The notes beneath the pieces were generated by a model. It was not told the origin of the DNA and made no database searches. It was given only the letters and a program-made list of their open reading frames with translations. Shown piece after piece: positions 493-13,419 of a DNA stretch of 19,358 nucleotides (its first letter is position 1; each line of letters opens with the position of its first letter). The DNA is from an uncultured Rubrobacteraceae bacterium. Lineage in GTDB: Bacteria > Actinomycetota > Rubrobacteria > Rubrobacterales > Rubrobacteraceae. The DNA is taken from the NCBI GenBank assembly GCA_902805985.1, contig CADCUW010000092.1, forward strand, positions 1-19,358. The letters run 5' to 3'. A program made the translations under genes and the position numbers.

Positions 493-822
493 CTACCTGA
501 CGCCGTCACCCTTCGCCTGTTTGGCGTTCTCGAGGTCGATCTGCTTTCGCACCTCCGCCGGCGGCCCCTGGACGTAGAGCACGGCCCCCCAGGACATGAA
601 GATGGTAGGGTCCCCCGGGTTGCGCTTCACCTCGATGCCTAAGTTCCCGTAGTCCTCAAGAAGGAACGAGGCGGTCACGGCCTCGGGTTTGTCCCTCACC
701 GGCTTGGCCGGCTTGTCGGCGTCGAGGTTCGGGCCCGCCATATAGGAGACGAAGACCCAGTAGTTCAGCCACTCGGAGAGTATCGGCGTCTTCGCGGACG
801 GACCGTCGCTCGTGGTCTGCAT
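493..822 (-). CDS. Unrecognised 109-residue protein beside ferredoxin
   Basis: I do not recognise this family. Seen: 109 residues, no cysteines, no signal peptide; one aromatic-rich stretch (EWLNYWVFVSYMAG, about residues 17-30), a central FLLEDYGNLGIEVKRNPGDP segment and a charged C-terminus. The stretch IFMSWGAVLYVQG (about 74-86) is hydrophobic but broken by polar residues, so a soluble beta-rich fold seems more likely than a membrane anchor. Start: ATG 822 shares its first base with the ferredoxin stop (TGATG), with GAGAGG about 8 bases upstream, so the two genes are probably translationally coupled. That coupling suggests a partner or accessory protein of the ferredoxin; this is inference from position only. 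It does not look like a MmoB/PrmD coupling protein. Confidence 0.75.
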   Translation of the reverse strand: MQTTSDGPSAKTPILSEWLNYWVFVSYMAGPNLDADKPAKPVRDKPEAVTASFLLEDYGNLGIEVKRNPGDPTIFMSWGAVLYVQGPPAEVRKQIDLENAKQAKGDGVR

Positions 823-1220: not shown

Positions 1221-2033
1221 CTACCGCCCGTTCTGGATCAGCACGGAGGCCTCCCGCCCGGCCCACTGGACGAGCTCGATGAGGTGCCTCTGCCCCTCCT
1301 CCCTGATGCGCCGGGGCGTGGTCGAGAGCCCTATCGCCCCCTCCACCTTGCCGTTCTCGTCCTGCACGGGCGCCGCCACGCAGCACAGGTTCAGCGCGAA
1401 CTCCTCGAAGTCCGTCGCCAGCCCAACCATCCGCGCCTTGTTGAGCTGCGCGTGCAAAAGCGCCGGCTGGGTGATGGTCCTTGGCGTGAACGCCTCCAGC
1501 CCGTGGTCGTCAACGTAATCGTCGACGTACGCGGACCCCTGGCCGGCCAGCAGCACCTTGCCCAGAGCCAGCGCGTGCGTCGCCCCCTGGAAGCCCGGCG
1601 TGACCCCCACGGGCGGCCCGTCCGGCGGGGCCTTGACCTGCGTGACGGTGACCTCCCCGTCCGAGAGCACCGCCGTGTAGACATTCCGGCACGACCGCCG
1701 GGCCAGCTCCGCCACGACGGGTTCGATGGTGGCGTCGAGGTTGCTCCTCGCGTTGTGCTTGAGCGCGGCGACCGCGGGACCCAGCCTGTAGCCCCCGTTC
1801 TTCGGGACCCTGTCGATGTACCCCTCCTCCACGAGTATGTGCAGCAGGTAGTAGCAGTTGGAGAGGCTTGTCTCTATCTCCCGGGCCAGTTGCTTCGCCG
1901 TGAGATCCTCACCGCGCCGGCTGACGAGGTCTATGATCTTGAAGACCCGACGCACGCTCCGGAATTTCGGTCCGGTCTCCAACTCTCGTGCGGGCGCAGA
2001 ACCGTTGGCCCTCTCCGAAAAATGCCGCCTCAT
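1221..2033 (-). CDS. IclR-family transcriptional regulator
   Basis: 270-residue DNA-binding regulator. Seen: a winged helix-turn-helix at about residues 28-92 (LTAKQLAREIETSLSNCYYLL, then GYIDRVPKNGGYRLG for the wing), then an IclR effector domain (about 100-265) with HALALGKVLLAG, a DDHGLEAFTPRTIT segment and AAPVQDENGKVEGAIGLS. Length is usual for the family. Start: ATG 2033 with GGGGTGA about 8 bases upstream. Context: transcribed away from the hydroxylase gene, so the two share the 2034-2330 control region with the palindrome at 2151-2169. A weak - strand promoter (TTGCGC 2125-2120, CAAAAT 2103-2098, 16-bp spacer) may drive it. Inference: it is the best candidate to bind the palindromes ahead of the three monooxygenase units. 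Family members can activate or repress; the site position favours activation. In mycobacterial mim loci the regulator (MimR) is, as I recall, of another family. Confidence 0.93.
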   Translation of the reverse strand: MRRHFSERANGSAPARELETGPKFRSVRRVFKIIDLVSRRGEDLTAKQLAREIETSLSNCYYLLHILVEEGYIDRVPKNGGYRLGPAVAALKHNARSNLDATIEPVVAELARRSCRNVYTAVLSDGEVTVTQVKAPPDGPPVGVTPGFQGATHALALGKVLLAGQGSAYVDDYVDDHGLEAFTPRTITQPALLHAQLNKARMVGLATDFEEFALNLCCVAAPVQDENGKVEGAIGLSTTPRRIREEGQRHLIELVQWAGREASVLIQNGR

Positions 2034-2150
2034 TGACGGTCACCCCGATCTCGCACCCCTCTCTCGAGGCGCGGTGGATTGCCTTTCCCTTAACCTGATT
2101 TTGTAACACCTGCTCCCTCGCGCAAGCCCTCTACCCCTTTACGTGTAATT

Positions 2151-2169
2151 TTTCTCACACTGTTGGAAA
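2151..2169. promoter_or_regulatory. Palindromic operator O1 ahead of the hydroxylase gene
   Basis: TTTCTCACACTGTTGGAAA is a dyad: TTTC-nn-ACA-n-TGT-nn-GAAA, symmetric about base 2160 except the n positions. It shares 13 identical bases (ACACTGTTGGAAA) with the site at 4268-4280, and TGTTGGAAA with the site at 8681-8689. Its centre lies 48 bp upstream of the first base of the -10 hexamer at 2208, about -60 from the expected transcript start. It lies between the divergent iclR and the hydroxylase gene, so it could serve both. Confidence 0.75.
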
Positions 2170-2184
2170 AATGGTTCGGTGGCC

Positions 2185-2213
2185 TTTGCCGGCCCCGACG
2201 CCGGACATAAGAT
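2185..2213 (+). promoter_or_regulatory. Putative sigma-70-type promoter of the hydroxylase large-subunit gene
   Basis: TTTGCC (2185-2190) and TAAGAT (2208-2213) are separated by 17 bp; TTGCCG one base later with a 16-bp spacer is an equal reading. The predicted transcript start near 2220 gives a leader of about 110 bases. The match to consensus is moderate, which suits a promoter needing an activator at the upstream palindrome. Confidence 0.55.
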
Positions 2214-2242
2214 GGCTTTGTAAGAAAGGGAACTTGCAAGGT

Positions 2243-2314
2243 ATGCCGTCGGGAAAACGGAGGAGGTACGGGCGAGGACACTGCCAGGAAGCACGTTTGG
2301 TAGCCCGACTCTAG
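2243..2314 (+). CDS. Possible 23-codon leader ORF
   Basis: ATG 2243 to TAG 2312-2314 encodes a short basic peptide (starts [12 protein letters not shown], one Cys, ends VARL). It lies wholly in the predicted leader and stops 16 bases before the GTG of the hydroxylase gene; its stop codon sits just before that gene's AAGGAG ribosome site. It has only a poor ribosome site of its own (CAAGG one base from the ATG, or AAAGGG about 12 away). It may be chance; if translated it could couple to the downstream gene. Confidence 0.2.
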
Positions 2315-2330
2315 AAAGGAGTCATTCTAC

Positions 2331-3968
2331 GTGGCCCGAAGAAGCGTAACCAAGGCACACAAGAAGATCCAGGAACTCTCCTGGGAGCCGACTTTCGTCG
2401 AGAAAGACCCGAAGTACAAGACCGACTACGTGCTCGAAAAGGGTTCGCAGAAGGACCCGATGAAGCAGGTAATGCAGTCGTACTTCACCATGCAAGAGGA
2501 GAAGGACCACAGGGTGTACGGCGCCGTAGACGGTGCTGTGCGCGGGAACATGTGGCGTCAGGTGCAGCCGAGGTGGATGGAGTGGCAGAAGCTCTTCCTC
2601 TCCATCATCCCCTTCCCCGAGATCTCCGCGGCCAGGGCGATGCCGCTCCTGACGGAGGCGGTGCCCAACACGGAGATCCACAACGGGCTTGCGCTCCAGA
2701 TGATCGACGAGGTCCGCCACTCGACGATCCAGATGAACCTCAAGCGCGAGTACATGAAGAACTACATCGACCCGGCGGGGTTCGACATCACCGAGAAGGC
2801 GTTCTCCAACAACTACGCCGGGACCATCGGCCGTCAGTTCGGCGAGGGTTTCATAACGGGTGATGCGATCACGGCCTGCAACATCTACCTCCAGGTCGTC
2901 GCGGAGACCGCCTTTACGAACACCTTGTTCGTGGCGATGCCGTCGGAGGCTGCGGCCAACGGCGACTACCTGCTGCCGACGGTGTTCCTCTCGGTCCAGT
3001 CCGACGAATCCAGGCACATGAACAACGGCTACGGCACGCTCCTGATGGCGCTCGCGAACGACGAGAACAAGGACCTCCTAGAGCGCGACCTGATCTACTC
3101 GCTCTGGAACCAGCACGCCGTCGTCGACGCCGCCATCGGCGTGTTCATCGAGTACGGAACCAAGGACCGCCGCAAGGACCGCGAGTCCTACGCGGAGATG
3201 TGGCGCCGCTGGTACTACGACGACTACTACCGCAGCTACCTGGTGCCGCTCGAGAAGTACGGTCTCAAGGTCCCCCACGAGGTTGTCGAGGAGGGCTGGA
3301 ACCGGATCTGGAACAAGGGCTACGTGCACAAGGTCGCCCAATTCTTCGCAACCGGCTGGCCGGTCAACTACTGGCGCATAGACCCGATGACCGAGGAAGA
3401 CTTCGAGTGGTTCGAGCACAAGTACCCAGGCTGGTACAACGAGTTCGGCCAGTGGTGGGAGCACTACAGCTCGCTCTCGGAGCCCAACGGCCACAAGCCG
3501 ATAGCCTTCGAGGACACGGGCTACGTGTACCCGCACCGCTGCTGGAGCTGCATGGTCCCGTGCCTGATCCGCGAGGATACGGTCATGGACTTTGTCGACG
3601 GCCAGTGGAGGACCTACTGCCACGAGTACTGCCACTGGACGGACACGGTCGCCTTCCGGGACACCTACAAGGGCCGCCCGACGCCCGCCATGGGCAAGAT
3701 GACCGGCAAGCGCGAGTGGGAGACCCTCTACCACGGCTGGGACCTCGCCGACATTCAGCAGGACCTCGGCTACGTCCGGGACGACGGCAAGACCCTCGTC
3801 CCCCAGCCCCACGTCCTCTTCGACGAGAAGAAGATGTGGACCCTCGACAATATGCGGGGCATCGAGTTCCAGAGCCCGAACGTCCTGCTCAACCAGATGT
3901 CCGACGAAGAGCGCGAGAAGCACATGGCGGAGTACAAGCAAGGCTTCACCATCAACACGAGCTACTAA
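2331..3968 (+). CDS. prmA: Propane/acetone-type soluble diiron monooxygenase, hydroxylase large (alpha) subunit
   Basis: Catalytic subunit (545 residues) of a soluble diiron monooxygenase of the PrmA/MimA group; known members oxidise propane to 2-propanol, and some act on acetone or phenol. Seen: six iron ligands at E97, E127, H130, E192, E226 and H229 (EVRH and ESRH motifs); the spacings 30-3-62-34-3 equal those of methane monooxygenase (114, 144, 147, 209, 243, 246). The conserved run [20 protein letters not shown] lies between. A C-terminal Cys/His cluster (C404, C407, C411, C430, C434) resembles a YHS-like metal-binding domain. Start: GTG 2331 with AAGGAG 9 bases upstream, giving [10 protein letters not shown] as in relatives. 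Context: unlike the usual contiguous operon, a terminator and about 470 bases separate it from the reductase gene. Alternative symbol mimA; substrate cannot be read from sequence alone. Confidence 0.96.
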
Positions 3969-3990
3969 CCGTCCACGACATCCGAAAGGC

Positions 3991-4015
3991 GAGCGGCCGG
4001 GCAAACCGGCCGCTC
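3991..4015 (+). terminator. Probable intrinsic terminator after the hydroxylase large-subunit gene
   Basis: A 10-bp perfect stem (GAGCGGCCGG / CCGGCCGCTC) with loop GCAAA begins 23 bases after the stop codon and is followed by a pyrimidine run (TCTCTTT). It separates the large-subunit transcript from the reductase operon. Confidence 0.7.
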
Positions 4016-4261
4016 TCTCTTTGCGCCGCAAGCGAAGATACCGGAGCTTGAAATTCCTGCCTCCAAGGAACGGCGCGGGCTTTTTTGACCGGACCGTTTC
4101 GCGTGCGTAGGATCCAGGCCGGAAAGGGAATCGCAGGAACGAGAGCCAAGAGCAGGTCGCCGTCGGCGGGGAGGCGGGCGCGAGAAACACACGGCGGCCC
4201 GGTCTCTAAAGAGCGCCGCCGATCTCACCGAGCGGTCTCCCCTCGCGCCTCACGGTCCTCG
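4016..4261. other. Intergenic stretch with no recognised gene
   Basis: About 246 bases between the terminator and the O2 palindrome. Small open frames here have atypical, Arg/Ser-rich composition and no ribosome site. A TTTTTT run at 4081-4086 follows a GC-rich stretch but no convincing stem precedes it. I see no RNA gene or repeat. Confidence 0.5.
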
Positions 4262-4280
4262 ATTCCGACACTGTTGGAAA
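4262..4280. promoter_or_regulatory. Distal palindromic operator O2 ahead of the reductase operon
   Basis: The core TTCCGACACTGTTGGAA (4263-4279) is the most symmetric copy: TTCC-n-ACA-n-TGT-n-GGAA, centre 4271. It is about 107 bp upstream of the predicted transcript start and exactly 48 bp (centre to centre) upstream of the weaker copy O3. Confidence 0.7.
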
Positions 4281-4310
4281 TTCTCCGTATTTCGTACACG
4301 CACCCGTAAA

Positions 4311-4327
4311 TCCCAACACTTGAGGAA
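4311..4327. promoter_or_regulatory. Proximal, weaker operator O3 ahead of the reductase operon
   Basis: TCCCAACACTTGAGGAA matches 9 of the 12 fixed positions of TTC-nn-ACA-n-TGT-nn-GAA. On its own it would be unconvincing. Its centre (4319) is 47 bp before the first base of the -10 at 4366, the same spacing as O1 (48) and O4 (47), which is why I call it. Confidence 0.55.
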
Positions 4328-4342
4328 TCGATTGGCACTATT

Positions 4343-4371
4343 TTGACGTGGCCTTGTTGCGTGTATACGAT
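4343..4371 (+). promoter_or_regulatory. Promoter of the reductase / small subunit / coupling protein operon
   Basis: TTGACG (4343-4348), a 17-bp spacer, then TACGAT (4366-4371); the overlapping TATACG (4364-4369) with a 15-bp spacer is the alternative. This is the best sigma-70-like promoter in the locus. Predicted start is near 4378, leaving a leader of about 60 bases. Confidence 0.65.
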
Positions 4372-4439
4372 CGTGGTTCACCAGGGGTTTAGGGCATACA
4401 CCACAAGACCATGCATAAAAGGGGTTGAGGGGCTTAGTT

Positions 4440-5531
4440 ATGGGAAAGAAGCACAAGGTCCACTTTGAGCCGGTCGGCATCGAGATCGAGGTAGACGAAG
4501 AAGAGACCGTCCTCGATGCGGCGTTCCGGCAGGGCGTCATGTTGATGCATGGCTGTAGGCAGGGGCAGTGCGCGGCGTGCAAGGCGTTTCTGTTGGATGG
4601 CGACATGGAGATGGACCCTTTCTCCACTTTCGCGCTAAACGAGACCGAGGAAGAGGAGGGCTTCGTCCTCCTGTGCAAGTCTTACGCCTACGGCGATCTT
4701 GAGGTCGAGCTCATCGCCTACCACGAGGACATGCTGGAGACGGGTGTTCCGATCCAGATGATTCACGCCGAGGTCCAGGAGATCGAGGCGCTCACGCATG
4801 ACATAAAGCGCCTCGTGCTCAACCTGGTGGATCCCCCGGAGATGAACTTTATCCCGGGGCAGTACGCCGAGCTCTACCTCCCGGGGAGCAACGAGCACCG
4901 GGCCTACTCCATGGCGAACACCACCTCCTCCGCCGAGCGGGCCGAGTTCATCATCAAAGTCTATCCGGGCGGGATGTTCTCAAGTTACCTGGAGGAGGAG
5001 CTCAAGGTCGGGGACAAGATGAAGGTGAAGGTCCCCTTCGGGATGTTCATGCTGCACGAGAAGTCCGAGGGAGACATCATCTTTCTCGGGGGCGGCTCGG
5101 GAATGGCCCCGATCTGGTCCATCCTCAACCACATGGCCGAGAACGGCATCGAGCGGAAGGCCACTTACTACTACGGGGCCAGGACAAAGAAAGACCTCTT
5201 CTTTCTCGACGAGTTAGCGGCGTTGGAGAAAAAGCTGCCAGGTTTCCGTTTCGTGCCGGCGCTCTCGGACCCAGACCCCGACGACGAGTGGGACGGGGAG
5301 ACGGGTTTGATCACGGATGTCCTCAGCCGCCTGGAAGGAGACCTCAGCGGGACGGAGGCGTACCTGGCCGGCCCACCCCCCATGATCGACGCGGCTATCC
5401 CGGTGATCGAGGCGAAGGGCGTGGAGCGGGAGAGCATCTACTTCGACAAGTTCACGACCACGGGGGAGGCGGAAGGGTCCAAGAAAAAAGAAGTGAAAGG
5501 CCCGGAGGCCCCCGAACGACTCGAACAATAG
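4440..5531 (+). CDS. prmB: Monooxygenase reductase component (2Fe-2S / FAD / NADH)
   Basis: Passes electrons from NADH through FAD and a 2Fe-2S centre to the hydroxylase. Seen in 363 residues: an N-terminal ferredoxin domain with C39, C44, C47 and C79 (C-x4-C-x2-C-x31-C), FAD-binding RAYSMAN (154-160), the NAD-binding GGGSGMAP (217-224), and the C-terminal IYFDKF typical of the ferredoxin-NADP reductase superfamily. A Lys/Glu-rich tail of about 20 residues follows. Start: ATG 4440 is preceded by GAGGGG 7 bases away and fits the family; a TTG 15 bases upstream is in frame but less likely. Context: first gene of a three-gene operon with its own promoter. Alternative symbol mimB. Confidence 0.95.
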   Translation: MGKKHKVHFEPVGIEIEVDEEETVLDAAFRQGVMLMHGCRQGQCAACKAFLLDGDMEMDPFSTFALNETEEEEGFVLLCKSYAYGDLEVELIAYHEDMLETGVPIQMIHAEVQEIEALTHDIKRLVLNLVDPPEMNFIPGQYAELYLPGSNEHRAYSMANTTSSAERAEFIIKVYPGGMFSSYLEEELKVGDKMKVKVPFGMFMLHEKSEGDIIFLGGGSGMAPIWSILNHMAENGIERKATYYYGARTKKDLFFLDELAALEKKLPGFRFVPALSDPDPDDEWDGETGLITDVLSRLEGDLSGTEAYLAGPPPMIDAAIPVIEAKGVERESIYFDKFTTTGEAEGSKKKEVKGPEAPERLEQ

Positions 5532-5630
5532 AAGGAGATGCCTATGCTTTGACGGGCAGAGAAGCGACAAATCCAGAGAGAGCATCGTGCGGACAGCAAA
5601 GATCAGTTGGGAAAGGATGGTTGACTGTCT

Positions 5631-6764
5631 GTGAGTGAAGAGAAGGCAATTACCGAAGCGGCGGGACGGGGAACGAGGAGCATACCCCCCATCCGGTTGA
5701 CGGACGCGGAAGCCGGGGCGGCCGAGTTCGCGGGGTCCGGCAGCCGGACGTACAACTACTTCGAGCCCAAGGGGCGTCGCGCCACCAAGTACGAGGACGT
5801 GACGGTCGACGTCCAGCCCGACCCCGACAAGTACCTGACGCAGGGTTGGATCCTCGGGTGGCCCAACGGCGATCTGGGCTACGACGCGACCTGGACGAGC
5901 ATAAAGTCGTCCAACTGGCACGAGTTCCGCGACCCCAACGAGGAGTGGGAGAAGACGTACTACGTCAACAACTCGAACTCCGTCCGCCAGATCACGCAGA
6001 GCATCGAGAACGCCAAGTCAGAGAACGTGTTCCAGTACTGGAACAAGAGCTGGCTCCCGATCGTCGCCAAGCACGTCAGCGCCTGGTCGCACGTGGATCA
6101 CGGCCTCGGCATGTACGTCTTCATGCCAGCCCAAAGGGCCGCCATGAGCAACATGCTCAACAACGCCATCGCCGTCAACTGCATGCACAAGCTGCGCACC
6201 GCCCAGGACATCATCCTCTACAACCTGGAGATAAGCGAGATCTTCTCCGAGGACGAGTTCGACCCGACCATCCATCAAGAAACCTGGATGAACGATCCGT
6301 CCTGGCAGGGCGTGCGCGAGAACGTGGAGCGCATAATCAACGCCAAGGACTGGGCTGAGACCACCTTCGCGGCCAACATTATCCTGGAGCCGCTCGTCGG
6401 CGAGCTGTTCCGCAGCCAGTTCGTGATGCGGTTCGCCCCCCTGCACGGCGATTCGCTGACCGGCTCGGTGATCGGCGTGAGCGAGAGGGAGTTCAACGAG
6501 CGCGACCTCCGCTACACCAAGGAGATGTTCCGGGTCTTCGGCGAGGACGAAGTCCACGGCGAGGAGAACCGCCAGCTCATGCAGGAGTGGCTCGCCCGCT
6601 GGACGCCCTACAGCGTCGCCGCCGCCAAGGGACTCGCACCCATCTGGTCCGAGCCCGAGGCCAAGCCGGTGAGCTTCGAGGATTCCTACGAAGGGGTCAA
6701 GAGCCGCTTCCAGGGCATCCTCTCCGATCTGCAACTCCAGCTGCCAGAGGAGGTGACCCTGTGA
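5631..6764 (+). CDS. prmC: Monooxygenase hydroxylase small (beta) subunit
   Basis: Structural partner of the large subunit in the dimeric hydroxylase; it has the ferritin-like four-helix fold but no metal site in this family. Seen: 377 residues with the family pattern RTYNYFEPKGRRATKYEDVT (about 39-58), QPDPDKYLTQGWI, LKSS-like IKSSNWHEFRDPNEEWE, NNAIAVN-MHKLRTAQD and LEPLVGELFRSQFVM. No EXXH iron pairs, as expected. Start: GTG 5631, with AAAGGATGG ending 10 bases upstream. A five-codon ATG reading frame (5617-5634) ends over this GTG, so translation may be reinitiated. Context: about 100 bases after the reductase and overlapping the next gene by GTGA. Alternative symbol mimC. Confidence 0.94.
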   Translation: MSEEKAITEAAGRGTRSIPPIRLTDAEAGAAEFAGSGSRTYNYFEPKGRRATKYEDVTVDVQPDPDKYLTQGWILGWPNGDLGYDATWTSIKSSNWHEFRDPNEEWEKTYYVNNSNSVRQITQSIENAKSENVFQYWNKSWLPIVAKHVSAWSHVDHGLGMYVFMPAQRAAMSNMLNNAIAVNCMHKLRTAQDIILYNLEISEIFSEDEFDPTIHQETWMNDPSWQGVRENVERIINAKDWAETTFAANIILEPLVGELFRSQFVMRFAPLHGDSLTGSVIGVSEREFNERDLRYTKEMFRVFGEDEVHGEENRQLMQEWLARWTPYSVAAAKGLAPIWSEPEAKPVSFEDSYEGVKSRFQGILSDLQLQLPEEVTL

Positions 6765-7126
6765 GCGAACGGCCCACCGAAGAACGATTCCAGAGCGACC
6801 GCACCTCGTCCAACAGGTGCGGCGTCACGATGAGCGCCAGCGTCGAGGGCAACGCCATCGCCGAGGTAATGGGCGAGAAGCCCGGGGTTGAGGTCAGCAA
6901 GTACCCGGCCATGATCCGGATAGACGCCGACGACAGGCTCGAGTTCGACATGGACGAGATAGCCGAGGCCCTGGGCGTCGAGGAGTTCACCCCGGAAGAC
7001 TTCGAGATCGAGACCTCCACCCACTACGGGCGGATGGTCAAACAGGACGACCGGGTCCTCCTGTTCGCCAACCCCGAAGATGCCGCCGAGGAAATCGGCT
7101 TCCAACTCCCGGAGGTGAAGCAGTAG
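6761..7126 (+). CDS. prmD: Monooxygenase coupling (regulatory) protein, MmoB/PrmD family
   Basis: Small cofactor-free effector that binds the hydroxylase and tunes oxygen activation and electron transfer. Seen: 121 residues, with CGVTMSASVEGNAIAEVM (about 20-37), the PAMIRIDADDRLEFD strand pair, STHYGRMVKQDDRVLLFANP and the final EDAAEEIGF, all typical of PrmD/MimD. Start: GTG 6761 overlaps the stop of the small-subunit gene (GTGA) and has GGAGGTGA just upstream, so it is translationally coupled; an upstream in-frame extension inside the previous gene is a shadow. Last gene of the unit; a long palindrome follows 25 bases later. Confidence 0.95.
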   Translation: MSERPTEERFQSDRTSSNRCGVTMSASVEGNAIAEVMGEKPGVEVSKYPAMIRIDADDRLEFDMDEIAEALGVEEFTPEDFEIETSTHYGRMVKQDDRVLLFANPEDAAEEIGFQLPEVKQ

Positions 7127-7151
7127 CCCTTCGCTAAACCAGAGCTTTTCT

Positions 7152-7191
7152 GTAAGAGGGCGGCAGGTTCGCGAACCTGCCGCCCTCTTAC
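7152..7191. terminator. 40-base perfect palindrome after the coupling-protein gene
   Basis: Arms of 20 bases are perfectly complementary (starts GTAAGAGGGCGG, centre TTCGCGAA). No T run follows on the + strand; the - strand side is also not T-rich. As RNA it would form a very stable hairpin with a UUCG-like tip. It is probably a terminator of the U-less kind reported in actinobacteria, or a 3'-end stabiliser of the reductase operon mRNA. Confidence 0.6.
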
Positions 7192-7306
7192 GGCGTCGAC
7201 ACGCGATGGTTTAATTCGATTCACCGTGAGCCCCGCGCGAGGGGGACGCTGCCCTTCCCCGGGTGGCATCATGGGTTTGCAGGGAGATCGACCAAGGGAT
7301 AAGGTC

Positions 7307-8051
7307 ATGAGGTTCCGCACCCTCATGCGCGCGGCACTCTTTGACGGTACGCTGTACGCGGAGGCCAAGGCTAACACGACAGCCACCGGGTCGGCGCTTG
7401 GGGTCGTAGGGCTCGTGGCGCTGGCGCACGGTGCGGGAGGGATCATTCGGGCGGTGGCCTTCGAGCGGGACCCCCCGACAGGGACCCCCGACAGAGGGCT
7501 TCCTCATCGGCGCGCAAGGCGAGATCGTCTTCTGGGTCGGGAGCTCCTCCGCGATCTATCTCATCGGTAGATACCTTCTGGGCAGCACGGCCACCTACGG
7601 GCAGGAGCTACGGCCGTTGGGCTTCGCGGCGGTACCAGGGCTGCTCATCCCCGTTGCCGCCCTGGCCTCGCTCGTCGGTGCCGAGACCTTGATCTTCGCG
7701 GCGCTCGTTCCCTGGCGGTTGGCGACGAGCCTCGTCGCCGTAGACCGGGCCTTGGGGGTGGGTCGGACGAGGAGTGCGGTTGCCTTCTTGCTCGGCGCAA
7801 TGTGCGGGCTAGTGCTGGTGGGGATCGGTACGGTAACGCTGCTAAACGTACTGGCCTTAGCCAATCTCAGAGGATCCCCTGACCTTCGAAACCTTTGTTT
7901 GCCCCGGCCTTGCCACCCGACGAGCAGGACCGAGCGGCCAACTGGACCTTACGGCCGGTGGGAGAGCGCCTGGACGACCTTCTGGGGGGTCGGTAGGCGT
8001 TCCACGCCGGGCCAGCCGCGGCTGAGCAGCCCGCCGCCGCCCGCGACGTAG
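7307..8051 (+). pseudogene. Yip1-like membrane protein gene, frameshifted by a 13-bp tandem duplication
   Basis: Seen: the first part (ATG 7307, RFRTLMRAALFDGTLYAEAK, then a hydrophobic TGSALGVVGLVALAHGAGG) is in one frame; the rest (GEIVFWVGSSSAIYLIGRYL, then several hydrophobic segments to about 7860) is in another. They meet at two direct copies, GGGACCCCCCGACA (7467-7480) and GGGACCCCCGACA (7481-7493). Removing the 13-base second copy restores one frame reading ERDPPTEGFLIGAQGE, so the break is explained exactly. The pattern of a short N-terminus, then four or five membrane segments with ATYGQELRPLGFAAVPGLL, resembles Yip1-domain proteins common in these bacteria. After about 7870 the frame runs on over - strand sequence and no longer looks like protein. 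ATG 7271 and 7325 are alternative starts. Function unknown; either a pseudogene or a sequencing/assembly error. Confidence 0.65.
7467..7493. repeat. 13/14-bp tandem duplication
   Basis: GGGACCCCCCGACA is followed directly by GGGACCCCCGACA. The copies differ only by one C in the C run. The 13-base insertion shifts the Yip1-like reading frame by +1. Confidence 0.85.
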
Positions 8052-8240
8052 GAGATGATCACGGACGTGGGACCGTCGTCCCCGAAGCTGACCATCCGGT
8101 AGTACTTGCCGTGCCTCCCGATAACCGTGCCGGACGAACCCCGTTCCGACCGATCCTCCCACCCCAGGCGCGCGAGCGCTCCCCGTACACCTCGGCCCTG
8201 CTCTCTCCGCGAGAAGCCACGCGCCCTCCCGTCGCCCTCC
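7949..8240 (-). pseudogene. Fragment of an unrecognised protein gene, no start codon
   Basis: An open - strand frame (from after TGA 8275-8273 to TAA 7951-7949) has convincing protein character in its 3' half: GTVIGRHGKYYRMVSFGDDG, PTSVIISYVAGGGGLLSRGW, then VERLPTPQKVVQALSHRP. There is no ATG, GTG or TTG in the frame before an internal ATG at 8095, which lies mid-domain. Near 8180-8200 another frame reads RAEVYG, which would join ALARLGWEDR if two bases were removed, so a second frameshift is likely. I do not recognise the family. It lies just downstream of the 102-residue gene and the two frames overlap by about 23 bases. Called a remnant; a 48-residue product from 8095 is possible. Confidence 0.4.
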
Positions 8241-8249
8241 GGTCCCCGT

Positions 8250-8558
8250 CTAGCCGTTGCCCGGGCGCCGCGTCATCTCCCGCTCCTTGAGCTCCAACAG
8301 CCCGTCCCGGAACTCCTCCGGAGAGGTGGATCTCTCGAAGAGGCCGGCAATGTCCTCTATGTCCCGGCGATTCATCAGGAGGTACTCCCACCCGTCCTTG
8401 GTGTGCAGGCCCTCGAAGGCGCAGACCGCCATCGCCACGGTATTCCACGGGTCCTCCGTCCCGTTCTCGTGGCACATGTGGAGCATCCTGCCCGCCTTGA
8501 GGGTGCGCTCCCCGAACTCCCTCGGCCTCGTGTGCCTGTTCGCATGATCCCCGAGCAT
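8250..8558 (-). CDS. Unrecognised 102-residue protein
   Basis: No family recognised. Seen: 102 residues, hydrophilic, no membrane segment; a motif-like core KAGRMLHMCHENGTEDPWNT (about 22-41), then VAMAVCAFEGLHTKDGWEYL and a charged helical C-terminus (SPEEFRDGLLELKEREM). Start: ATG 8558 has a strong AAAGGAG about 6 bases upstream; a TTG 18 bases further up is less likely. A weak - strand -10 (TATAGA) lies about 75 bases upstream. Context: back to back with the amidohydrolase operon promoter. Its good ribosome site and codon use suggest a live gene, unlike its downstream neighbour. A His/Cys pair (HMCH) might bind metal; that is speculation. Confidence 0.65.
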   Translation of the reverse strand: MLGDHANRHTRPREFGERTLKAGRMLHMCHENGTEDPWNTVAMAVCAFEGLHTKDGWEYLLMNRRDIEDIAGLFERSTSPEEFRDGLLELKEREMTRRPGNG

Positions 8559-8670
8559 TCTCGACTCCTTTCCCAAAAGGGCGGCGAAGATCGTCGTGTT
8601 CTCGGCCGAACGTCCCTCGCTTGCAACAGTCTATACAGGCAGGGTGGCCGCGTCCCGTTCCCCCGAGGTT

Positions 8671-8689
8671 TTTCTTACGTTGTTGGAAA
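8671..8689. promoter_or_regulatory. Palindromic operator O4 ahead of the amidohydrolase-groEL operon
   Basis: TTTCTTACGTTGTTGGAAA follows TTTC-nn-AC-nnn-GT-nn-GAAA, centre 8680. It shares TTTCT-AC and TGTTGGAAA with O1. The centre is 47 bp before the first base of the -10 at 8727, about -59. Confidence 0.75.
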
Positions 8690-8702
8690 GCCGGGGGCGT
8701 TG

Positions 8703-8732
8703 TTGCCGCGGGTCCGGGGTTCACCCTATAAT
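8703..8732 (+). promoter_or_regulatory. Promoter of the amidohydrolase / MIP18 / adh / groEL operon
   Basis: TTGCCG (8703-8708) and a perfect TATAAT (8727-8732) with an 18-bp spacer. Predicted start near 8739 leaves a leader of about 150 bases, in which a strong AAAGGAGG (about 8755) has no standard start codon behind it. The real first start is TTG 8889. Confidence 0.65.
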
Positions 8733-8888: not shown

Positions 8889-9923
8889 TTGTACGAGAAA
8901 GACGGCGAGAAGTACTTCGTGGTCGACGGTCACGTCCACTACTGGGACGCGAGCCCGGAGAACACGACCAACCGCTACGGCGAGGGCTTTATAAGCTGCT
9001 TCTACGACTACCATAAGAACCTCAGCCCCGAAGAGTACGCGTGGGACTACGACAAGTACCGCAAGTACTCTGAAGAGGACATGATGCACGACCTCTTCGA
9101 GGTGGGCTACGCCGACAAGGCGATCTTCCAGCCCACCTACCTCACGGACTTCTACGGCAACGGCTTCAATACCACCGAGCGCAACGCCATCATGCGCGAC
9201 AAGTACCCCGACAAGTTTATCCTGAACGGCTCCTTCGAGCCCAGGCGCGGCGAGGCCGGCCTCCAGGAGTTCGAGCGCAAGCACGAGAAGTACGGCTTCA
9301 CCGGCGTCAAGCTCTACACCGCCGAGTGGCACGATGACTCTAGAGGCTGGAAGCTCGACGACTACTGGTCCATAAAGCACCTCGAGAAGTGCGTGGAGCT
9401 CGGTGTAAAGAACGTCCACGTCCACAAGGGGCCGACGATCTGGCCGCTCAACAAGGACGCCTTCGACGTCGCAGACGTCGACAGGGTCGCCGGCGAGTTC
9501 CCCGACCTCAACTTTATCGTCGAGCACGTGGGGTTGCCGAGGCTGGAGGACTTCTGCTGGATCGGGACGCAGGAGCCCAACGTCTACGGTGGCCTGGCGG
9601 TCGCGATGCCGTTCATCCACGCCAAGCCCAGGTACTTCGCCCAGATCATGGGCGAGCTGCTGTACTGGCTCGGCGATGACAAGCTCCTCTTCGCCAGCGA
9701 CTACGCGCTCTGGCAGCCCAAGTGGCTCGTCGAGATGTTCGTGGACTTCAAGTACCCCGAGGACGCGGAGTTCGACGACTACGACGAGATCACGCCGGAC
9801 GTCAAGCGCAAGATCCTCGGCCTCAACGCCGCCAACCTCTACGGCATAGAGGTCCCGCAGGAGATGCGGGCCACCGAGGAGAGCGGCGACCGCGTGGCCG
9901 CCGAGCCGGTCTCCCCCGCCTGA
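8889..9923 (+). CDS. Amidohydrolase-2 family metal-dependent hydrolase of the monooxygenase locus
   Basis: TIM-barrel hydrolase (344 residues) of the amidohydrolase-2 (PF04909-type) group. Seen: the metal-binding HxH at H15/H17 (VVDGHVHYWD), later HVHKGPTIWP, EHVGLPRLED and the catalytic Asp region LLFASDYALWQP. Start: TTG 8889 gives MYEKDGEKYFVVDGH, with GAGGAG 5 bases upstream; a longer in-frame reading from 8814 has no ribosome site. Known: a homologue accompanies mimABCD in mycobacteria, from memory, but its reaction is not established to my knowledge. Context: first gene of the third unit, with overlap TGATG to the next gene. Inference: it may act in maturation of the monooxygenase or on a downstream metabolite. 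Confidence 0.9.
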   Translation: MYEKDGEKYFVVDGHVHYWDASPENTTNRYGEGFISCFYDYHKNLSPEEYAWDYDKYRKYSEEDMMHDLFEVGYADKAIFQPTYLTDFYGNGFNTTERNAIMRDKYPDKFILNGSFEPRRGEAGLQEFERKHEKYGFTGVKLYTAEWHDDSRGWKLDDYWSIKHLEKCVELGVKNVHVHKGPTIWPLNKDAFDVADVDRVAGEFPDLNFIVEHVGLPRLEDFCWIGTQEPNVYGGLAVAMPFIHAKPRYFAQIMGELLYWLGDDKLLFASDYALWQPKWLVEMFVDFKYPEDAEFDDYDEITPDVKRKILGLNAANLYGIEVPQEMRATEESGDRVAAEPVSPA

Positions 9924-10618
9924 TGCCTGCCCGCAAGGAGGTCCTGGACGCCCTCTCGGGCGTCCGGGACCCGGAGCTTGACGAGCCGATCACCGACCTG
10001 GACTTCGTGTCCTCGTTGGAGATAGAGGACGACGCAGCCACCATCAGGCTGCGGCTGCCGACGTACTTCTGCGCCCCGAACTTCGCCTACCTGATGGTCG
10101 CGGACGCGCAGGCCGCGGCCGTCTCGGTGCCGGGCATCGAGCGGGCGACGGTCTTTCTCGACGACCACTACGCCTCCGAGGAGATCAACGGCGGCGTCAA
10201 CGAAGAGCGCGGCTTCGACGGCGCCTTCCCCAAGGAGACGGAGAGCCCCGACCTCGAAGGGCTCCGTACCATCTTCCGGCGCAAGAGCTTCGTCTCCCGC
10301 CAGGAGCAGCTCTGCCGAACCCTACGGGCTGATGGCCATCCTCCGGAAGAACTCGCGAACATGAAGTTGGAGGACCTCCCCCCCTCAGACGAGTTCGAGA
10401 AGTATCTGGAGCGCAGGGCGGAGCTCGGCCTCGACGTCTCGGCCGGGGCTCCGCTCGTCGTTGACCCTGACGGCAACCGGGTGCCGGAGGATGCGGTCGT
10501 GCAGCACCTGCGGTTCGCCAAGACCGTGAGGGTGAGCATCGAGGGGAACGCAGGCCTCTGTCGCGGTCTCCTCTCCGTCCGCTACGGCATTCCCCAAAGA
10601 GAGGAGAAGACCGCATGA
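9923..10618 (+). CDS. MIP18/DUF59 iron-sulfur assembly-type protein with C-terminal extension
   Basis: 231 residues. Seen: an N-terminal MIP18 (DUF59) domain, about residues 1-85, with the family signature DALSGVRDPELDEPITDLDF and a conserved-looking Cys in YFCAPNFAYLM; then about 145 residues that I cannot assign, including RKSFVSRQEQLCRTLR and FAKTVRVSIEGNAGLCRGLL. Known: DUF59 proteins help load metal or iron-sulfur centres (SufT, the PaaD family; PaaD serves another diiron monooxygenase, PaaABCDE). Start: ATG 9923 overlaps the amidohydrolase stop (TGATG); the end overlaps the next gene (ATGA), so all three are tightly coupled. Inference: maturation factor for the diiron hydroxylase or its reductase, by analogy with PaaD. 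Confidence 0.85.
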   Translation: MPARKEVLDALSGVRDPELDEPITDLDFVSSLEIEDDAATIRLRLPTYFCAPNFAYLMVADAQAAAVSVPGIERATVFLDDHYASEEINGGVNEERGFDGAFPKETESPDLEGLRTIFRRKSFVSRQEQLCRTLRADGHPPEELANMKLEDLPPSDEFEKYLERRAELGLDVSAGAPLVVDPDGNRVPEDAVVQHLRFAKTVRVSIEGNAGLCRGLLSVRYGIPQREEKTA

Positions 10619-11676
10619 AGGCGGCCCGGCTGCACCGCTACGACGAGAGCATTCCCAAGGACAGCCTCAAGGTCGAGGAGATCGAAGAGCCGAAGATAGA
10701 GAACCCCTTAGACGTTCTCGTGAAGGTCGGGGCGGCGGGGCTCTGCCGCACGGACATCCACGTCGTCGAGGGCCAGTGGGCGCCCATCCAGGACCCGGAC
10801 GGGACGCTGCTGCCGTACGTGCTCGGGCACGAGAACTCGGGGTGGGTCGAGGAGGTCGGGTCTGCCGTCACCAACGTGCAACCGGGCGACACCGTGATCT
10901 GCCACCCCCTAATGACGTGCGGGCTTTGCCACTATTGCCGAGCGGGCAGGGACATGCAGTGCGAGAACGGCGCCTTCCCCGGCATAAGCCAGGACGGCGG
11001 CTTCGCCCAGCTTCTGAGAACGAGCGCGAGGAGCGTCGTAAAGCTCGACCCGGTCCTGCAGCCCAAGGACATCGCAGCCCTCGCCGACGCGGGGCTGACC
11101 GCCCACCACGCCGTCAGGAAGGCCGTACCCGACCTCTACGCCGGGACTAACGCCGTCGTCATAGGCGCCGGGGGGCTCGGGCACATCGGCATCCAGTGCC
11201 TGAGGGCGATGACGCCGACGAACATAATCGTGGTGGACCCGAGTGAGGAGGCGCTCGCACTCGCCAAGGAGTGGGGCGCGGACGAGACCGTGCAGGTCCA
11301 GGAGGGCTACGCGGACACCGTGATCGAGATGACCAACGGGGGGGCCGAGGTCGTCTTCGACTACGTCGGCGAGCGGGGCGCCCAGGACGAGGCCTGGAAG
11401 ATGACGCGGCCGGCCGGCTCCCACTACGTCATCGGCTACGGTGGGAAGATCGAGATCCCGACCATAGACATCATCTCGACCGAGCGGAACGTCATCGGCA
11501 ACCTCGTCGGCACCTACAACGACCTCGCCGAGCTGATGAACCTGACGGCCCGGGGCCTGGTCACGCTCCATACATCGACCTACCCGCTGGACGCCGTCAA
11601 CGACGCGATCCAGGACCTGAACTCGGGCAACCTGAGGGGGCGCGGAATACTCATCCCCGAGGGCGCCGCCGCCTGA
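10615..11676 (+). CDS. adh: Zinc-dependent NAD alcohol dehydrogenase (MDR family)
   Basis: 353 residues, medium-chain dehydrogenase. Seen: catalytic zinc ligands C44 and H72/E73 (GLCRTDIH, GHENSG), a full structural zinc lobe C102, C105, C108 and C116, and a Rossmann motif VIGAGGLGHIG (about 176-186); the acidic residue in IIVVDPSEE indicates NAD rather than NADP. Known: an adh follows prm/mim genes in Gordonia and mycobacteria and oxidises the alcohol product, such as 2-propanol to acetone. Start: ATG 10615 overlaps the preceding stop. Context: third gene of the unit, followed by a stem-loop and then groEL. The substrate is inferred from position. Confidence 0.93.
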   Translation: MKAARLHRYDESIPKDSLKVEEIEEPKIENPLDVLVKVGAAGLCRTDIHVVEGQWAPIQDPDGTLLPYVLGHENSGWVEEVGSAVTNVQPGDTVICHPLMTCGLCHYCRAGRDMQCENGAFPGISQDGGFAQLLRTSARSVVKLDPVLQPKDIAALADAGLTAHHAVRKAVPDLYAGTNAVVIGAGGLGHIGIQCLRAMTPTNIIVVDPSEEALALAKEWGADETVQVQEGYADTVIEMTNGGAEVVFDYVGERGAQDEAWKMTRPAGSHYVIGYGGKIEIPTIDIISTERNVIGNLVGTYNDLAELMNLTARGLVTLHTSTYPLDAVNDAIQDLNSGNLRGRGILIPEGAAA

Positions 11677-11710: not shown

Positions 11711-11740
11711 ACAGGGGTGCCGGAATGCCGGCGCCCCTGT
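11711..11740 (+). other. Stem-loop between adh and groEL
   Basis: A 13-bp stem (ACAGGGGTGCCGG / CCGGCGCCCCTGT, one G-U pair) with loop AATG, 34 bases after the adh stop. No T run follows, and no clear promoter is visible before groEL, so I favour an attenuator or mRNA processing/stability element within one operon over a full terminator. Confidence 0.5.
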
Positions 11741-11784
11741 CCATTATCGACCAAGCCGTGTCGCAGCGGCGGGAAGGTTCTACC

Positions 11785-13419
11785 GTGGCGCACAAGAAGC
11801 TGAAGTTCGACACCGACGCCCGCCGGGCGCTCGAGAGGGGCGTAGACAAGCTCGCGGGCGCCGTGAGGGTCACGCTAGGCCCGAAGGGGCAGTACGTGGT
11901 CCTCGGCCAGGCGTTCGGCACGCCGACGATCACCAACGACGGCGTGACCATCGCCCGGCAGGTGGAGCTCAGAGACGTCTTCGAGAACCAGGGCGCCCAA
12001 CTCGTGCTCGAGGTCGCGACCAAGACAAACGACGTGGCGGGCGACGGGACGACGACAGCCCTCGTGCTGGCCCAGAAGATCGTGAGCGAGGGCCTCAAGA
12101 ACGTGGCGGCCGGGGCCAACCCGGTCATCTTGCGGGGCGGCATCGACAAGGCCGTCGAGGCCGCGGTCGGTTCGATCCGGGCTCAGGCGCGCGAGATCTC
12201 GGGCAGGGATGAGATCTCGCGCGTCGGCGCGATCTCCGCCCGCTCCCGGGAGATAGGCGACGTTATCGCCGACGCTATAGAGAAGGTCGGCAAGGACGGC
12301 GTCGTGAACGTGGAGCAGGGACAGACCCTCGCCATGGAGCTGGAGTTCACGGAGGGGATGCACTTCGACAAGGGCTACGTCTCCCCCTACTTCGTCACCG
12401 ACCAGGAGACGATGGAGGCGGTGCTCGACGAGCCATACATACTCCTCGCGAACCAGAAGATCAGCAACGTCCCTGACCTGCTGCCGGTCCTGAACGCCGT
12501 CGTGCGGGCCGGCAAGCCGCTGCTCATAATCTCCGACGACCTCGAAGGCGAGGCCCTGGCGGCCCTGATAGTCAACAACGCGCGCGGGACCTTCTCCGTG
12601 GCCGCCGTGCGGGCGCCGAGCTTCGGCGACCGCAGGAAGAGGATGCTCGAGGACATCGCCATCCTCACCGGCGGCGAGGTCATCACCGCCGACCTCGGCC
12701 TCACGCTCGAGAACGCCAGCATAGACCAGCTCGGCCGTGCGAGGCGCGTCTACATCACCAAGGACGACACCGTCATCATCGACGGCGCGGGCGACCCCGA
12801 GGAGATCTCCGGCCGCACCCACCAGATCCGGAACGAACTCGAGATGACCGAATCGGACTTCGACCGCGAGAAGCTCCAGGAGCGTCTCGCCAGGCTGGCC
12901 GGCGGCGTCGCGATCGTCAAGGTTGGCGCCGCGACCGAGACGGAGCTCAAGGAGCGCAAGCACCGCGTCGAGGACGCCCTCTCGGCGACCCGGGCAGCTC
13001 TTGAGGAGGGCATCGTCCCCGGCGGGGGCGTGGTGTACCTGCGGGCCCAGGAGGCCGTCGCCGGGATACTCGATACGCTCGACGGCGACGAGAAGACGGG
13101 GGCCAGGATCGTGCACCGGGCGCTGGAGGAGCCGATCCGCCAGATCGCCGCCAACGCCGGCGCCGACGGGTCGATCGTGGTCTCCAGGGTGAGGGACCGG
13201 GGCGGCGACGTCGGCTTCAACGCGCTAACCGGCGAGTACGAGGACCTGATCTCCGCCGGCGTCACCGACCCGACGATGGTCTCCCGCTCGGCCCTCGAGA
13301 ACGCCGCCTCGATCGGCTCCCTGATCCTGACCACCGAGGTCGTCGTCGCAGAACCCCCGCCCGAGGGCGGAGGCGCCGCGGCCGTCTCCCGCACCGGCCA
13401 CAACATGGACTTCATGTAG
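11785..13419 (+). CDS. mimG: Dedicated GroEL-like chaperonin of the monooxygenase locus
   Basis: 544 residues, a full-length Hsp60. Seen: [22 protein letters not shown], the ATP-site [15 protein letters not shown], and the chaperonin signature [15 protein letters not shown]. The C-terminus ends GHNMDFM and lacks the GGM repeats of housekeeping GroEL. No groES is next to it. Start: GTG 11785 ([14 protein letters not shown]) with GGGAAGG 7 bases upstream; the in-frame extension upstream covers the stem-loop and is not coding. Known: in mycobacteria MimG, a GroEL homologue, is needed to produce active MimABCD in a foreign host. Inference: it folds the hydroxylase here. Last gene of the unit. Confidence 0.93.

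Follow-up and report, generated by a model that had tools for sequence, protein, structure and literature searches.

The window analysed here is a 19,358-nt stretch of contig CADCUW010000092.1 (C92) from the 4.23-Mb genome (G000) of an uncultured Rubrobacteraceae bacterium. By its gene content it is a prm/mim locus, composed of prmABCD together with genes for a hydrolase, a metal-sulfur protein, an alcohol dehydrogenase (ADH) and GroEL. The locus is divided into three units, each headed by palindromic DNA of the pattern TTCnnACAnTGTnnGAA. These palindromes are very probably the operators of the IclR-family regulator encoded at 1221–2033 on the reverse strand, and the three units would form a local regulon, most likely under class I-like activation from sites near -60. 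This reading is carried by the sites themselves, their restriction to the locus, their conservation in related loci, their constant phase to predicted promoters and their association with an IclR gene.

Proposed operator sites and promoter phase

Operator 1 (TTCTCACACTGTTGGAA, 2152–2168, centre 2160) matches the pattern exactly and lies between the divergent iclR and prmA genes. Unit 2 is preceded by a tandem pair composed of a distal exact copy, operator 2a (TTCCGACACTGTTGGAA, 4263–4279, centre 4271), and a weak proximal copy with three mismatches, operator 2b (TCCCAACACTTGAGGAA, 4311–4327, centre 4319). Operator 3 (TTCTTACGTTGTTGGAA, 8672–8688, centre 8680) precedes unit 3 and has one mismatch. 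The preliminary description of this DNA spoke of four sites and listed three of them. Four are indeed found, the unlisted one being the perfect copy centred at 4271, and the copy given for unit 2 at 4319 is present as the weaker member of the pair. Operator 2a lies 48 bp upstream of 2b and 95 bp from the -10 hexamer of unit 2.

All promoters are predicted. The prmA promoter (2186–2213, forward strand) is composed of a -35 hexamer TTGCCG (2186–2191) and a -10 hexamer TAAGAT (2208–2213), the unit 2 promoter (4343–4371, forward strand) of TTGACG (4343–4348) and TACGAT (4366–4371), and the unit 3 promoter (8703–8732, forward strand) of TTGCCG (8703–8708) and TATAAT (8727–8732). The distance from operator centre to -10 is 48 bp (2160 to 2208), 47 bp (4319 to 4366) and 47 bp (8680 to 8727), so the coordinates bear out the distances given in the preliminary description, and its placement of the sites near -60 and clear of the -35 fits these predicted promoters. 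A promoter is also predicted for iclR on the other side of operator 1 (2098–2125, reverse strand; -35 TTGCGC 2125–2120, -10 CAAAAT 2103–2098). Its -10 and the centre of operator 1 are 57 bp apart, which exceeds the prmA distance by about one helical turn; operator 1 thus probably also sets the level of the regulator.

The same phase is seen in the orthologous loci of the family. When the best -10-like hexamer was sought only at 36–59 bp from the operator centre, it fell at 47–50 bp in all 12 prmA heads and at 46–49 bp in 10 of the 12 amidohydrolase heads. Strict promoter pairs (TTG, 16–18 bp, xAxxxT, at least 3/6 matches) occur at 46–50 bp at a rate of 5.60 per offset, against 0.31 elsewhere with the secondary peaks included and 0.18 without them, an 18- to 31-fold enrichment depending on the background; the 0.18 value omits offsets 56–59 and 91–95, which were picked after the peaks were seen. 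A strict pair at 46–50 bp is present for 25 of 36 operators. The secondary peak at 57–58 bp mostly represents the predicted iclR promoter across operator 1 (7 of 12 loci), and the one at 95 bp comes from the distal site of unit 2, which stands at this distance in 6 of 12 heads and at 91 bp in three more. The 10-bp step between 47 and 57 bp is compatible with dependence on the face of the helix. The near-copies L136 and L150 were left out of the promoter-offset analysis and of the bits-per-column values given below.

A tandem pair 48–49 bp apart is found in five of the 12 unit-2 heads (the window and loci L136, L137, L138 and L139), a second site with three mismatches 38 bp away in two (L140 and L154), a single site in three and none in two. 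The counterparts of operator 2b in L136, L137, L138 and L139 stand 46–47 bp from the -10. The weak site at 4319 is probably a real operator because of its position and conservation, not because of its own sequence.

Activation is suggested by the position of the sites and by the poor -35 hexamers of the predicted prmA promoters, which read TTGC or TTGT at every one of the 12 loci and are therefore weak. Relative to the predicted promoters, the sites occupy a constant position before the -35, which is the placement of a class I activator. An IclR dimer, or two dimers at the tandem sites of unit 2, would bind TTCnnACAnTGTnGGAA-type DNA near -60, just upstream of each -35 and clear of it. With its effector bound, for which a pathway alcohol or ketone is plausible, the protein would most likely recruit RNA polymerase in a class I-like way. 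The units are split by a terminator-like stem and unrelated DNA, and as each is headed by its own operator, the separated units would thus stay co-ordinated.

The same IclR protein might instead occupy the same sites as a repressor that is released by the effector, a reading that we consider unlikely. The unit 2 -35 (TTGACG) and the unit 3 -10 (TATAAT) are near consensus and might fire without an activator, as repression would have it. Against this, wherever a promoter is predicted at 46–50 bp, the site stops short of the -35, overlaps neither hexamer and keeps its distance tightly, and the weakness of the prmA -35 hexamers likewise speaks for activation.

Conservation and the probable IclR partner

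Family loci were located by tblastn and a head motif was counted at two mismatches or fewer, with L154 and L155, which hold only the prmA end, left out of the prmA count. The genomes are related, so the counts are not independent, and many are draft or metagenome assemblies. The motif precedes prmA in 12 of 13 loci, the reductase gene in 9 of 12 and the amidohydrolase gene in 12 of 13. The heads that lack it are those of prmA and the reductase in L142 (genome G036), of the reductase in L140 and L141, and of the amidohydrolase in L139; the L140 reductase head has sites with three mismatches. In L139 the amidohydrolase unit lies downstream of iclR-fdx on the same strand, and operator 1 may therefore serve it. 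All 40 copies found in 21 stretches at two mismatches or fewer fall outside the tracked genes. In the prmA-iclR gap (n=11) the 17 bp of the operator hold 1.75 bits per column compared with 0.56 for other windows, and at the amidohydrolase heads (n=10) the values are 1.56 and 0.38. In line with the local regulon of three units proposed in the preliminary description, comparison with the orthologous loci of relatives gives the same motif at the same phase. In loci whose groEL is separate from adh, or in which no adh was found, groEL is preceded by a site at 126–476 bp (L138, L139, L140 and L155), in each case between groEL and a divergent gene for a 108-amino-acid protein.

A box directly left of operator 1 (TGTAATTT, 2144–2151) is composed of conserved columns and is a weak candidate for a third half-site. 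Columns -16 to -9 are conserved in the prmA-iclR gap (n=11 sequences); at the amidohydrolase heads (n=10 sequences) only columns -10 and -9 among these are conserved.

The product of 1221–2033 is by its domains an IclR-family transcription factor, with an N-terminal HTH_IclR domain (PF09339, 37.4 bits, cut-off 22) and a C-terminal effector domain (IclR_C, PF01614, 93.8 bits, cut-off 24). Its best solved chain is 1mkm, an IclR regulator. Close homologues (E ≤1e-55) number 21 among 396 genomes of the phylum, all of them in the family of the window, and the motif lies upstream in 20 of the 21, at one mismatch or fewer in 19. Many of these 21 loci are ones in which the motif was first noticed; the newly found G027 and G029 both have it upstream of the IclR gene. 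A prm locus of the window's kind is absent in 8 of the 21, all in draft genomes: G013, G016, G017, G018, G021 and G027 have no PrmA match, and the only PrmA match in G009 and G029 has about 25% identity. In the six of these eight in which the genes were located (all except G027 and G029), the amidohydrolase-MIP18-adh genes and the motif adjoin the IclR gene, at a distance of a few kb in G017.

In loci L146–L151, the IclR gene accompanies amidohydrolase-MIP18-adh, and the stretches yielded no prm genes; the amidohydrolase-MIP18-adh set is thus not tied to the monooxygenase alone. In L148 (G017, 4657–7729), one operator precedes genes encoding a glyoxalase-fold protein, a 247-amino-acid protein without a Pfam match and a GMC oxidoreductase, and a second operator in G017 heads the amidohydrolase unit, the glyoxalase-fold protein and the GMC oxidoreductase being encoded between the two. 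Pfam analysis of 11 proteins of the prm-less loci gave matches for seven, none of which tells the pathway.

Outside the family, 71 prm loci drawn from the best 80 of 129 were compared, each within 10 kb of prmA or less at contig ends, with the partial Rubrobacteraceae record L098 excluded. Among them, a single locus, L051 from Solirubrobacterales, has an exact motif in the 500 bp before prmA, and no locus but this one encodes an IclR protein of more than 50% identity (53%); two others have sites with two mismatches and 16 have only distant IclR proteins of 29–35% identity. Thirteen loci of the same set from the best 80 of 129 encode a distant IclR protein just upstream of prmA on the same strand (L050, L052, L054, L055, L058, L064, L067, L069, L080, L083, L088, L103 and L109); these are mostly Solirubrobacter or Conexibacter by title.

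The likely binder of the palindrome is the divergently encoded IclR protein, the candidate also named in the preliminary description, since the two co-occur even in genomes without a PrmA match and in the distant L051 locus. Binding by a different regulator encoded elsewhere, with the IclR gene as merely one of its targets, is improbable. In its favour, G036 retains the IclR gene without the motif, and in L051 the IclR gene does not adjoin the motif. On the other side, the motif travels with the IclR gene even where no PrmA was found and in the distant prm locus of L051, and it is hardly seen elsewhere in the 14 family genomes scanned. G036 is moreover the one close homologue that differs at a position of the recognition helix, which is Cys in all 21 motif-bearing rows (20 from the family and L051), and Ala in G036 and in five distant rows. 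A link between this Cys/Ala difference and the absence of the motif in G036 is suggestive, being a single case.

Genome-wide rarity and contrary observations

The preliminary description held that the shared motif was beyond chance. This does not apply to the window taken alone at three mismatches or fewer, where five sites compare with 2.48 expected and 18 of 200 shuffles reach as many, and it does apply genome-wide to copies that are exact or differ at one base. The exact pattern occurs at only two places in the 4.23-Mb genome, 2152 and 4263, both in the locus. At one mismatch or fewer there are nine places, three in the locus and six elsewhere, and a control pattern gives none. The six lie on six contigs of the host genome as near-identical GAGACTGTCTGAAAAG-type ends with a shared flank (L004–L009) and appear to be the termini of a single repeated, perhaps mobile, element. 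As candidates for further members of the regulon they were rejected on account of this nearly identical sequence and flank.

In 39 genomes the exact pattern is found at 12 places, of which 10 are in IclR/prm/amidohydrolase loci, and the reversed control at none. One of the two off-locus places (TTCAAACATTGTTTGAA, contig C88 of G004) is just ahead of a frame that by eye resembles the start of a TetR-type gene, and the other is in G051. A 21-bp form of the motif with 17 fixed bases was scanned at three mismatches or fewer in 14 family genomes. Every row with zero to two mismatches falls in IclR/prm/amidohydrolase loci, and eight rows fall outside them, all with three mismatches; the reversed control gives two rows in total. 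Neither over the whole genome nor over the 14 family genomes is the motif scattered at random. That the palindromes are chance occurrences or leftovers of repeats, with a coincidental phase, is scarcely credible, as the window count and the six apparent repeat ends are the observations in line with it and both the conservation across genera and the phase enrichment oppose it.

Several observations weigh against the IclR-operator reading or against activation as its mode. A site at -60 does not by itself prove activation. The spacing rule is broken by the amidohydrolase heads of L138 and L143 and by the unit-2 heads of L144 (56 bp), L140 and L154 (53 bp each), and the unit-2 heads of L141 and L142 have no site at three mismatches or fewer. 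The tandem step of 48 bp corresponds to 4.6 helical turns, not a whole number, so same-face dependence does not simply hold there, and it differs from the 18–22 bp common in the IclR family. G036 encodes prm and a 66% identical IclR protein with no motif at either head, the motif-less gap in L142 extending from PrmA at 3711 to IclR at 3937. The IclR gene of L051 lies on the opposite strand to the motif and several kb away from it, and no promoter is visible by eye at the usual distance. Finally, the outer bases here are TTCN...NGAA, mostly GGAA on the right, versus TGRA...TYCA in the IclR group 2 consensus published in PMC8222616.

Locus organization and related systems

Reading frames were annotated in the window up to 13.4 kb. 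The IclR gene (1221–2033, reverse strand) matches Pfam IclR_C and HTH_IclR above cut-off. Unit 1 encodes the hydroxylase large subunit of PrmA/MimA type (2331–3968, Pfam Phenol_Hydrox), and all genes of the three units are on the forward strand. Unit 2 is composed of the reductase (4440–5531; Fer2, FAD_binding_6, NAD_binding_1), the hydroxylase small subunit (5631–6764; Phenol_Hydrox) and the coupling protein (6761–7126; MmoB_DmpM). Unit 3 encodes an amidohydrolase-2 protein (8889–9923; Amidohydro_2), a MIP18/DUF59-type protein (9923–10618; FeS_assembly_P), a zinc alcohol dehydrogenase (10615–11676; ADH_N, ADH_zinc_N) and a GroEL-type chaperonin (11725–13419; Cpn60_TCP1).

The terminator-like stem with a T-rich tail between units 1 and 2 (3991–4015, forward strand) is weak evidence alone, as six such sites in the region compare with 5.1 in shuffles; inspection by eye shows comparable stems in several of the orthologous gaps between these units. 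Divergent from operator 3 is the gene for the 108-amino-acid protein (8250–8576, reverse strand), a possible further target that has no Pfam or NCBIfam match. Of the 10 loci in which this gene was located, 8 have an operator 61–173 bp from its start, and the protein is possibly a regulon member. A conserved 109-amino-acid protein is encoded on the iclR side (493–822, reverse strand), flanked by a 2Fe-2S ferredoxin and an iron-ADH, and likewise has no Pfam or NCBIfam match. Its homologue adjoins groEL in L138, L140 and L155.

The gap between units 1 and 2 is 474 bp in the window and 586 bp in G004, compared with 188–319 bp in the ten other loci measured. The extra part (4054–4113) contains a second promoter-like pair (TTGACC at 4085, TAGGAT at 4108), and TTCCTGCCTCCAAGGAA at 4054–4070 has its centre 46 bp ahead of TAGGAT, with the TTCC...GGAA arms kept and the ACA/TGT core lost. 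In an alignment with the unit-2 head of G006 (L137), a working one, the stretch scores 25, the best of 100 shuffles being 14. It looks like an older unit-2 head that was abandoned when the present head was gained.

The group 2 consensus of IclR operators is TGRAACAN1-2TGTTYCA (Suvorova and Gelfand 2021, PMC8222616), and IclR proteins generally control themselves and one or two adjacent operons, according to the Introduction of that paper. The window resembles the group 2 local regulons in the IclR protein, the ACA-N-TGT core and a regulator divergent beside its targets. The core agrees and the outer bases do not, so the site would be a relative of group 2 and no plain member. It further differs in its tandem spacing, mostly 48–49 bp here versus 18–22 bp there, and in having a propane-type monooxygenase cluster as its target; the main text of PMC8222616 contains none of the words monooxygenase, propane and Rubrobacter. 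Compared with the three-box operators of PcaU, PobR and HmgR, the box left of operator 1 would fit a third half-site, and the NCBIfam model for PcaR/PcaU/PobR ranks second for the window IclR (88 bits, cut-off 284.75). However, the core is not of the GTNCG-N5-6-CGNAC type given for these operators in the Introduction of PMC8222616, and the amidohydrolase heads show no third box.

In the prmABCD and mimABCD clusters of Rhodococcus and Mycobacterium, as described in passages of PMC4428276, the same enzyme genes are accompanied by a hydrolase, a metal-sulfur protein, an ADH and GroEL, and a Fis-family gene is divergent ahead of prmA; a regulator MimR is named in PMC8394569. Here, in contrast, the divergent gene ahead of prmA encodes an IclR protein (no search was made for a Fis-family gene in the rest of the genome), and the cluster falls into three units, each headed by a predicted promoter of its own. 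The operator motif at zero to one mismatch is absent from the fetched prm loci of Rhodococcus, Nocardia, Streptomyces and similar genera. Rubrobacteria genomes from soil crusts have been noted to contain propane monooxygenase genes, whose exact function was yet to be determined according to PMC7901476, and the IclR gene mentioned in PMC5445863 is unrelated to the propane monooxygenase genes there. In agreement with the preliminary description, which knew of no such site for a prm/mim locus, a literature search covering few subscription papers found no IclR operator for such a locus in titles or passages (PMC8784404, PMC4428276, PMC7901476, PMC5445863, PMC8394569 and, on PobR, PMC12285266). An IclR local regulon is of a kind already known; the architecture here is unusually clear, repeated and phase-kept. 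New relative to the preliminary description are the site at 4271, the predicted iclR promoter past operator 1 and the occurrence of the IclR-operator pair without PrmA.

In a possible but less likely reading, the IclR-operator pair would be an older switch of the amidohydrolase-MIP18-adh genes, an alcohol pathway, which later came to govern the propane-type monooxygenase. After break-up or rearrangement of the cluster, in which prmBCD split off and either the amidohydrolase unit or groEL was displaced, every piece would have acquired its own head in nearly the same helical register, with the -10 at about 47 bp or less often 57 bp. The decayed head at 4054–4113, which persists in the window upstream of the current unit-2 head, would belong to this history. 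In the IclR tree, the proteins of prm loci and those of other loci form sister groups with moderate support (85/54 and 83/78), which fits either the joining of prm to an older amidohydrolase-adh switch or its loss from it. If the older-switch reading is true, the loci present a naturally occurring set of promoters that were rewired to a single regulator with their phase preserved.

These natural promoters, with their constant spacing, could serve to examine how IclR-type proteins act from upstream sites, and also as parts for hydrocarbon or alcohol biosensors. The module that lacks a PrmA match suggests that the signal may be a downstream compound rather than the gas. Since the regulator would be an IclR protein here and is of the Fis-family type in Rhodococcus and Mycobacterium, one and the same enzyme cluster appears to be wired to unrelated regulators, and a testable regulator and operator can now be named for the propane-type monooxygenases of Rubrobacteraceae.

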